The notes under the pieces were generated by a model. It had not been told where the DNA came from. It worked only from the letters and a program-made list of their open reading frames with translations, and searched no databases. This document shows positions 11,080 through 13,675 of a DNA stretch of 64,000 nt, in pieces (position 1 is the stretch's first letter; every line of letters begins with the position of its first letter). The translations under genes and the position numbers were made by a program. Source of the DNA: Actinomycetota bacterium (GTDB lineage: Bacteria > Actinomycetota > Acidimicrobiia > IMCC26256 > PALSA-555); NCBI GenBank assembly GCA_016870355.1, contig VGBR01000007.1, positions 1 to 64,000 on the forward strand. Reading direction: 5' to 3'.

Positions 11080-11967
11080 CTACGAGCAGTCCAGCGCGAC
11101 GCGGATCTTCTCGAGGTTGGTGCGCATCACGCTCAGGTAGTCCTCGCCGCGGTCGCGCTCGTTCGCCGAGAGTGATTCGAGCGGGTTCAGCACTGCGGTT
11201 CTGAGACCGCCGGCCTCAGCGGCGAGCGTCTCCGCGATCTTCGGTGACACCCGCGCTTCGGTGAAGATCGTGGTGACACCTTCGTCGCGCACGAGATCGC
11301 TCAGCTCCGCCAGTCTTTGCGGCTTGGGCTCTTGCTCGGGATCGATGCCGGCGACGCCCTGTTGCCGAATGCCGTAGCGGCGGGTGAGCCATCCGAACGC
11401 TTCGTGCGCCGTGACGAGAAGGTCGCGCTCGCAGTCCACCAGACCCGAAGTGAATTCGCCGTCGAGCTCATCGAGCTCTGCGATGAGCGCCGTCGCCTCG
11501 CGGTCGTAGGCCGCGGCGTGCTGTGTGTCGATCGCGGCGAGCCGCCGAGCGACCGCGTCGACGATCTCCTGCATCACGAGCGGGTCGAGCCAGATGTGGG
11601 GGTCACGTTCGGCCCGTCGCTGTTGGCTCGCGCTCAGCGCCCGGCGCACATCCAGCGTCGGTCCGTCCCGCTGCTCGGCTGACTCCTCGACTGCGGGTTG
11701 GAACCCACCGCTGAGCACGACGAGCAGGTCCGCGTCCTCGATCGCGGCGCGGTCGTCGGTCGTCAGCTCGAGGTCGTGCGGTTCGGCGCCCGCAGGGGTG
11801 AGGCCGGTCACGTCGACGTGCTCGTCGCCGACACGATCTGTGGCCCATTCGAGGGGATAGAAGGCGGCCAGGACGCGGGCCCGATCGCGCCCCGCATCCG
11901 CCGGGCTCACGGTCCCCGCCCAGGCCAACGCCACCACGAGCACAGGGCGGAGGGCTCCTCGCAACAT
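11080..11967 (-). CDS. znuA: Zinc/manganese ABC transporter substrate-binding protein (ZnuA-like)
   Basis: 295-residue cluster A-I metal-binding protein. Signal peptide (LRPVLVVALAWAGTV) without a lipobox Cys. Metal ligands of the family are visible: His64 in AEPHDLEL, His in DPHIWLDP, His in TAHEAFGW, and the acidic TEARVSPKIAETLA segment. There is no long His-rich loop between the first two sites, only a short acidic one. ATG 11967 lies within a palindrome shared with the divergent permease gene. No Shine-Dalgarno is possible upstream, so the mRNA is probably leaderless. Supplies Zn or Mn to the ZnuB permease. Confidence 0.9.
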   Translation of the reverse strand: MLRGALRPVLVVALAWAGTVSPADAGRDRARVLAAFYPLEWATDRVGDEHVDVTGLTPAGAEPHDLELTTDDRAAIEDADLLVVLSGGFQPAVEESAEQRDGPTLDVRRALSASQQRRAERDPHIWLDPLVMQEIVDAVARRLAAIDTQHAAAYDREATALIAELDELDGEFTSGLVDCERDLLVTAHEAFGWLTRRYGIRQQGVAGIDPEQEPKPQRLAELSDLVRDEGVTTIFTEARVSPKIAETLAAEAGGLRTAVLNPLESLSANERDRGEDYLSVMRTNLEKIRVALDCS

Positions 11968-11995
11968 GAGAATTGATCTTAGACTAGTTCTCATG
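11965..11995. promoter_or_regulatory. Divergent overlapping promoters inside a palindrome (znuA/znuB)
   Basis: CATGAGAA at 11965-11972 is mirrored by TTCTCATG at 11988-11995, an 8-bp perfect inverted repeat whose outer three bases are the start codons of both genes. Inside lie two -10-like hexamers on opposite strands: TAGACT (+, 11980-11985), 7 nt before the znuB ATG, and TAAGAT (-, 11981-11976), 8 nt before the znuA ATG. Both transcripts would then be leaderless. A metal-sensing repressor is the likely ligand, but the sequence does not match a Zur, Fur or DtxR consensus closely. Confidence 0.7.
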
Positions 11996-12805
11996 CCGTG
12001 GCCAATCGAATACGAGTTCATGCAGTACGCCCTCGCGGCCGGGCTCATCGTCGGCGCGACCGCGCCGCTGGTTGGCGTGTTCCTCGTGCAGAAGCGGCTG
12101 TCGCTCATGGGCGACGGCATCGGTCATGTCGCCTTCGCGGGTGTGGCCGTGGGTTTGCTGCTGGACATCTGGCCCGTGTGGGCCGCGCTGGCCGTCGCCG
12201 TCGGCGGCGCGCTACTCATCGAGTGGCTCCGCAGCCGACGCGAGGCGACGGGTGACCTCGCGCTGTCGTTGATCCTCTACGAAGGCCTCGCCGGGGGCAT
12301 CGTCCTCGTCGGCAAGGCCGACGCAGGCAACGAGAGCGTCGTCCCATACCTCTTTGGCTCGCTGCTGACTGTCGACGCGGGAGAGCTCGGGTTGCTCCTC
12401 GGGATGGGCCTCACGATCGGCATCGTGCTCCTGATCACCGGACGCGCGCTGCTCGCGACCGTCATCGACGAGGAATCAGCGCGCGTCGCGGGGATCCCGG
12501 TCGGGCTGTGCAACAACTTGCTGGCGGTGCTCACCGCGGTCACGGTCGTCGCAGCCATGCGCGCGGTCGGGATCCTCCTCGTCGCCGCGCTCATGGTGCT
12601 CCCCGTCGCGTCGTCACGGCTCGTGGCGCGCTCGTTCCGCGGGATCGTGATCGTCTCGAGCGCGATCGGCATCGGCTCAGTCGTGTTGGGACTGGTCGCA
12701 GCCCGCGCGTGGGACCTCGCACCGGGCGGCGCGATCGTCCTCACCGCCGGCGTGTTCTTCCTCGGCGCGGCCGCGGCTGGCCGTCGCCTCCAACGCGCCA
12801 CCTGA
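11993..12805 (+). CDS. znuB: Zinc/manganese ABC transporter permease (ZnuB-like)
   Basis: 270-residue ABC-3 family permease with about eight membrane helices. Seen: YALAAGLIVGATAPLVGVFL, the MGDGIGHVAFAGVA motif typical of metal ABC permeases, and AAMRAVGILLVAALMVLPVA. ATG 11993 is chosen because it sits 7 nt after a -10-like TAGACT; an in-frame ATG at 11966 lies inside the operator. Opposite and 25 bp from znuA. The expected ATPase gene (znuC) is absent on either side, so the complex must borrow an ATPase encoded elsewhere. Confidence 0.92.
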   Translation: MPWPIEYEFMQYALAAGLIVGATAPLVGVFLVQKRLSLMGDGIGHVAFAGVAVGLLLDIWPVWAALAVAVGGALLIEWLRSRREATGDLALSLILYEGLAGGIVLVGKADAGNESVVPYLFGSLLTVDAGELGLLLGMGLTIGIVLLITGRALLATVIDEESARVAGIPVGLCNNLLAVLTAVTVVAAMRAVGILLVAALMVLPVASSRLVARSFRGIVIVSSAIGIGSVVLGLVAARAWDLAPGGAIVLTAGVFFLGAAAAGRRLQRAT

Positions 12806-12816
12806 GCTGCGGCGGG

Positions 12817-12863
12817 TTTTCGGCACGCTGAACCCCACTATTTGTTGTTCAGCGTGCCGAAAA
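12817..12863. terminator. Bidirectional hairpin, repeated element copy 1
   Basis: Arms 12817-12833 and 12847-12863 are 17-bp perfect inverted repeats (core TCGGCACGCTGAAC), loop of 13 nt. It lies between convergent genes and begins and ends with T and A runs, so it can terminate from both sides. The same stem recurs at 34112-34156 with another loop. Confidence 0.8.
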
Positions 12864-12871
12864 TCCTGGGG

Positions 12872-13675
12872 TCAGGCAGTCGGGTTGGTGACGACGTCGT
12901 CGGCCCAGTCGGCCAGCGTCGGCGCGAGCATCGGCCAGCGAGCGAACAGTCCTTCACCGCGCAGCTCGCGCGCTTCGCCACGCTCGATCCACTCGCGATC
13001 ACCCCACGGCGGCTCGACGAGGCGACCGCCCGGCAGCACATCGGCGAGCTGCTCGGAGGTGGCGCGCGTGTGGTGCGGATCGCTCCCGCCACTGCGGAAC
13101 ACGAGTGTCGGGAGGTCGAGTGCCTTGGCATCCTTGACAGATAGGCCCGGCACGACATCACTGCTGTTCGGGCAGTAGACGGCCATCCATCGCTCCATGG
13201 TGGCGATGAACTCCTTGGCGTCCTGGTCGAGGAAGCGTTGGCGGTTCGACGGGTTGCGCTCGAGCACCTCGGTCCACTCGGGAAGCGCGGCAACGGCTTC
13301 CATGCCGCCGGTCCACGCGGCCCGGATGTTCTCGCCGCAGTAGTGGGTGCCGAGGGTGATGAGGCCGTACACACCACCGCTGATCCACCACATCGAGAGT
13401 GCGGCGGCGAGCTCACGATGACGCGCGGCCGTCAGCAGCGACACGCGCGCGCCGCCCGATCCGCCGACGATCACCGCTGGCATCATCTCGAGCTGGGTGA
13501 GGAGTCCCGCGAGCGCGTCGGCCTGCATTGCCGACTCCGAGTCACCGGTGAAGCACACATCCGACGCGCCACAGTTCGGCCGATCCCAGATGAGCACGCG
13601 GTTGTTGCGTTCGGCGAGCGCTTGCGCCAGCTCCCGGACGCTGGGGTCGTCCTTGCTGAAGCGGCCACCTGGCGC
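12872..13675 (-). pseudogene. Alpha/beta hydrolase lacking its N-terminus
   Basis: Coding sequence for an alpha/beta hydrolase: GGRFSKDDPSVRELAQAL, then RVLIWDRPNCGASDVCF, nucleophile elbow VGGSGGARVS and C-terminal GDREW region. The family normally begins about 25-30 residues before the GGRF motif with a first beta strand and start codon; here the frame runs into opposite-strand coding sequence at about 13675 without a start in the right place. The frame is otherwise clean, so loss is recent or the protein uses an internal start. Shares its break point with the truncated isomerase on the + strand. Confidence 0.7.

Follow-up and report, generated by a model that had tools for sequence, protein, structure and literature searches.

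Zinc-transporter genes that diverge from a short, shared control region have a published and partly tested precedent in C. glutamicum. There, cg0042 (znuB2) and cg0043 (znuC2) are separated by a 29-bp gap with one Zur motif, TAATGATAACGGTTATCATTT, and Zn-dependent binding and repression by Zur have been described for the pair (PMC2823685). For each of the two genes, the reported transcription start is the A of its ATG; that of cg0042 was mapped by RACE, and that of cg0043 was deduced or predicted according to the figure legend (PMC2823685). In E. coli, PznuABC has a Zur-controlled operator with overlapping recognition sites, on which two dimers cover about 31 bp (PMC4219657). Bidirectional promoters with symmetric −10 elements place their start sites near 18, 10 or 23 bp apart, with small variations allowed (PMC12825309), and actinobacterial promoters often lack a −35 element, as leaderless promoters of M. 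tuberculosis usually do (PMC3898074).

Here we analyse a 64,000-nt stretch of DNA (the window) in which a znuA-like and a znuB-like gene diverge across a gap of 25 bp. The locus joins the familiar design. As in C. glutamicum, a divergent zinc-transporter pair is separated by a short gap and has a Zur-type motif, although starts at the ATGs are only predicted for the window. Its own features are two overlapping 15-bp boxes in place of one 21-bp motif, a different gene pair (binding protein and permease, compared with permease and ATPase in C. glutamicum) and a broken-up operon, with the ATPase gene on another contig; the gap is also shorter, at 25 bp compared with 29 bp. With E. coli PznuABC, the locus would share a single Zur-controlled operator at a znu promoter, with overlapping sites that extend over about 31 bp. 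The window boxes, however, are offset by 12 bp, and leaderless starts, which we predict here, are not described for E. coli in the consulted passages of that source. From the arrangement of these sequence elements and their recurrence in relatives, we consider it likely that the 25 bp between the start codons act as a compact bidirectional promoter under a Fur-family metalloregulator, most likely Zur, and that both promoters are leaderless and jointly repressed.

The znuA–znuB junction and its palindrome

The znuA-like gene (11080–11967, minus strand) encodes a product of 295 aa (read from the ATG at 11967), the periplasmic metal-binding component of a Zn/Mn ABC transporter, and matches PF01297 (E = 2.5e-71). 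The znuB-like gene (11993–12805, plus strand) encodes an ABC-3 permease of 270 aa (read from the ATG at 11993) and matches PF00950 (E = 7.8e-60). These matches bear out the names znuA and znuB, which an earlier, sequence-only reading had given to the divergent pair. Orthologues of the permease, with 56–64% identity, occur in about 25 related genomes (the named ones are Acidimicrobiia and Actinomycetota bins and IMCC26256), and the alignment runs from residue 1. Starts further inside the junction, at which the genes would overlap (ATG 11966 for znuB and ATG 11994 for znuA), were rejected because the permeases of relatives align from 11993 and because the start at 11967 gives a normal signal peptide, as judged by eye.

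The junction forms an imperfect palindrome of 31 bp, CATGAGAATTGATCTTAGACTAGTTCTCATG (11965–11995), with 12 of 15 pairs matched. It reads CATGAGAA TTGATCTTAGACTAG TTCTCATG and holds both start codons in its outer arms, exactly as the sequence-only reading had described: CAT at 11965–11967 is the minus-strand ATG of the znuA-like gene and ATG at 11993–11995 is the start of the permease, with 25 bp (11968–11992) between them. The pattern TGAGAA-N15-TTCTCA, for which that reading had proposed a genome search, has a single occurrence in the 2.8-Mb genome, and the string CATGAGAA-N15-TTCTCATG occurred in none of 100 shuffles of the window. As a bare palindrome of any sequence, the element is only mildly unusual: one site with 12 of 15 pairs and the outer 8 exact was found in the window, compared with 0.2 expected from shuffles, and outer-8-exact palindromes of any sequence numbered 8 in the window and 2.2 in shuffles. 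What stands far above chance is that both halves are Fur/Zur-type boxes and that they sit on a zinc-transporter gene pair. We give next to no credence to a chance palindrome without regulatory role; the rate of about 0.2 such palindromes per window is in its favour, but the identity and position of the boxes speak against it, as does the conservation of the same parts at the znu promoters of relatives. None of the other 57 genomes in the order has the exact palindrome with two starts in its arms, which is what a recent junction would lead one to expect. Conservation in related genomes, on which the sequence-only reading had let its case depend, is thus lacking for the exact palindrome and present for its parts.

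Two overlapping Fur/Zur-type boxes

In about 25 Acidimicrobiia-type genomes, 15-bp boxes of 7-1-7 geometry and the form TGAGAATNATTCTCA are found at the starts of znuA and znuC. We built a weight matrix from 26 such boxes of relatives, collected by hand and with this genome excluded, and the two best matrix sites in the 64-kb window are the two halves of the palindrome. Box 1, TGAGAATTGATCTTA (11967–11981), overlaps the predicted znuA −10 element and start and scores 17.1; the weaker box 2, TTAGACTAGTTCTCA (reverse TGAGAACTAGTCTAA; 11979–11993), overlaps those of znuB and scores 13.0; the next unrelated site scores 9.3. With the same matrix, the box of the genome's own znuC (G000:C3:118451–119188, where G000 is this genome; L086:6446–7198, minus strand) tops its 16-kb region at 15.5, the next site scoring 4.3. 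Because the two halves rank first and second by the matrix of the relatives, the palindrome is best described as two boxes with an offset of 12 bp and an overlap of 3 bp. The earlier proposal of one operator thus holds for an operator region, and its single conserved 31-bp element gives way to two overlapping 15-bp boxes.

It is only position that gives the motif meaning, because its number of occurrences equals that of a control: a pattern search of the whole genome with up to two mismatches to the core pattern returned 12 box-like places, of which three are box 1, box 2 and the own znuC promoter, and the reversed pattern also returned 12. In terms of position, the putative Zur operator sits at a zinc-uptake promoter and the box is recurrent at the orthologous promoters of relatives. 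The consensus box of the relatives fits the S. coelicolor Zur motif tGaNNatSatNNtCa, which has the actinobacterial 7-1-7 form (PMC5472717), and boxes 1 and 2 of the window match it partly. DtxR/MntR was set aside as the regulator because the conserved boxes show the 7-1-7 geometry of the Fur family.

The two boxes differ in strength. Box 2 lies below every training site (the weakest of which scores 17.1), and in the related genomes G002 (TTAGAATGGGCGGCA) and G003 (TTAGAATGGGTCTCG) the second half has decayed while box 1 is intact, as would be expected if box 1 were the sole real operator, box 2 a by-product of the TAGANT −10 element and the TCTCATG start, and a single dimer sufficient to shut off both promoters. 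This is quite possible, although we lean against it: box 2 is still the second-best site in the whole window, two boxes are carried by several relatives, and G001 retains the second box, with one mismatch and again offset by 12 bp. Occupancy of the site by two dimers is uncertain.

Predicted leaderless promoters and the candidate regulator

The segment ATCTTAGACT (11976–11985) consists of two opposed, overlapping −10 elements, ANNNTANNNT. The predicted znuB element, TAGACT (11980–11985, plus strand), and the predicted znuA element, TAAGAT (11981–11976, minus strand), both have the form TANNNT and lie 7 nt and 8 nt before their respective ATGs. They share the TA step at 11980–11981, in agreement with the overlap of two −10-like boxes at the centre that had been noticed before. 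No sigma-70 −35 elements were found at the predicted znuA and znuB promoters. TAGACT-7-ATG and TAAGAT-8-ATG, without a −35 element, show the pattern of leaderless promoters, which makes leaderless transcription of both genes a well-supported prediction.

The same spacings recur in relatives. The znuC promoters of three same-genus genomes line up, base by base, with the znuB side of the junction: the box TGAGAATCACTCTTA is followed by TAGAAT (of the TAGANT pattern), exactly 7 nt and an ATG or GTG. For the znuA side, the znuA gene of the related genome G022 has TAGGAT 8 nt before its ATG, inside the same box context. Among relatives, an in-frame TANNNT 6–8 nt before the start was found at 13 of 34 znuC starts, with 2.1 expected from a local shuffle control; znuA starts show only a slight excess (8 of 29, the znuA of the window being counted among them, with 3.8 expected). 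At the own znuC promoter (L086:7240–7285, minus strand), the box is in addition located within a further inverted repeat, AGAGCAGTT-TTGAG-AACTGCTCT, whose 9-bp perfect arms lie just before the TAGAAT −10 element.

In the mechanism that we propose, each of the back-to-back TANNNT elements would direct transcription to begin on the A of its ATG or on a neighbouring base; both mRNAs would then be leaderless and would be translated as such. The boxes at 11967–11981 and 11979–11993 would extend across the −10 elements and start sites of both genes, and a zinc-loaded repressor, bound as one dimer or two, would keep RNA polymerase off both promoters at once. When zinc is short, the repressor would leave and znuA and znuB would be made together; the unlinked znuC on the other contig, controlled through a separate copy of the box, would be released together with them. 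Because the −10 elements overlap, the site would probably take one polymerase at a time, as in bidirectional promoters (PMC12825309). The likeness to those promoters lies in opposed −10 elements with common bases, and the shared TA step would place the site in the 23-bp class by its own geometry, although the start separation is 26 bp if transcription starts at the ATGs and the −10-to-start spacers are longer than in that class. In contrast to those promoters, the ones in the window are predicted only, and they would drive leaderless, protein-coding transcripts in both directions under a common repressor. A repressor that blocks both leaderless promoters, as the sequence-only reading had envisaged, remains the explanation that best fits the sequence and has comparative support, whereas the single palindrome on which it was thought to act does not.

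The genome has two Fur-family genes. One of them (C3:123336–123686) lies about 4–5 kb from znuC, and its orthologues, whose products are 62–86% identical, lie about 5–6 kb from the nearest znu gene in G001–G004 and G007; we regard its product as the best candidate for Zur. The second paralogue, on contig C6, scores best with PerR models and adjoins a rubrerythrin-like gene (by reading). The znu-linked protein scores no better with Zur models than with iron Fur and PerR models, and these mixed scores mean that sequence alone does not fix its metal. A regulator that senses iron or manganese would be compatible with these scores, as would a transporter that imports Mn or Fe and boxes that are Fur or Mur sites, and the binding protein of the window also resembles Mn-binding SBPs, if less well. 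We nevertheless consider this unlikely, given that the closest NCBIfam models for the ZnuA-like protein and the permease, both below cut-off, are the zinc-binding protein AztC and the zinc-transport protein AztB, respectively, that six genomes have the regulator gene in linkage with znu genes, and that the relatives' boxes have a consensus which agrees with the actinobacterial Zur motif.

A transporter split between two loci

In relatives, the permease gene lies directly after the znuC ATPase gene, and in many of them a divergent znuA is found on the other side of znuC. The two-start arrangement in the window goes with a local rearrangement, in that znuC, which usually separates znuA from znuB, is missing there; it stands by itself on a different contig, preceded by a box of its own. 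This znuC is 81% identical to the znuC of same-genus genomes and groups with them at 100/100 support. Its neighbourhood is that of the same-genus znuC–znuB pair, with a convergent peptidase-like gene directly after znuC, where same-genus genomes have znuB. Searches with tblastn found no znuC remnant at the window locus and no znuB remnant behind the own znuC. The genome therefore combines a znuA–znuB unit minus znuC with a znuC unit minus znuB, and reciprocal loss between two loci would be the simplest reading. The trees do not prove such a loss, because the window permease, at only 59% identity to the same-genus permease, still groups weakly with the genus (83/69). A PF01297 binding protein was not detected in G001–G003, although znuC–znuB is kept there.

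The segment 10254–14370 (znuA, znuB and a hydrolase gene) has no near same-genus DNA match, znuB reaching about 70%, and its flanks match same-genus contigs at 80–87% identity; znuA–znuB may thus belong to a small segment that varies within the genus. Where znuB and the hydrolase gene converge, the stretch 12817–12863 between their ends contains a 16-bp perfect inverted repeat, TTTTCGGCACGCTGAA...TTCAGCGTGCCGAAAA, with a fold z-score of −6.2 and a single copy in the window, which looks like a bidirectional terminator. Further on, at 13672/13673, an alpha/beta hydrolase gene (minus strand) and a xylose-isomerase-like TIM-barrel gene (plus strand) meet, both without their N-termini; in relatives, the two genes lie on separate contigs and the matches break exactly at 13672/13673. 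The joint stems either from a rearrangement or from chimeric assembly.

A suspicious joint on the same contig, together with an arrangement that is unique among the 58 genomes of the order, could mean that the znuA–znuB junction at the palindrome is itself an assembly artefact of the metagenome bin. We judge this highly improbable: the genes that meet are functional partners, and their start codons, −10 spacings and boxes are all in register; the znuC promoter on the other contig shares no more than short motifs with the junction, too short for a k-mer misjoin; and both flanks match the same genus. The contigs of G003 and G001 end near the znuA–znuB breakpoint.

We suggest, tentatively and as something short of probable, that the combination of two Fur-family dimers 12 bp apart, shared −10 bases and both starts nested in 31 bp formed on loss of the ATPase gene, and that the shared operator motif holds the two-locus transporter together. 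If the mRNAs are leaderless, repressor site, core promoter and start codon would lie on the same bases and form a very compact dual-gene switch. With this locus, the design known from C. glutamicum would reach an uncultured lineage of Acidimicrobiia type, and a usable Zur-type motif is gained for this group. The split transporter, with znuA–znuB at one locus, znuC at another and a box at each, suggests that the genes for one complex can stay under joint control through a common operator even when their operon has broken up.
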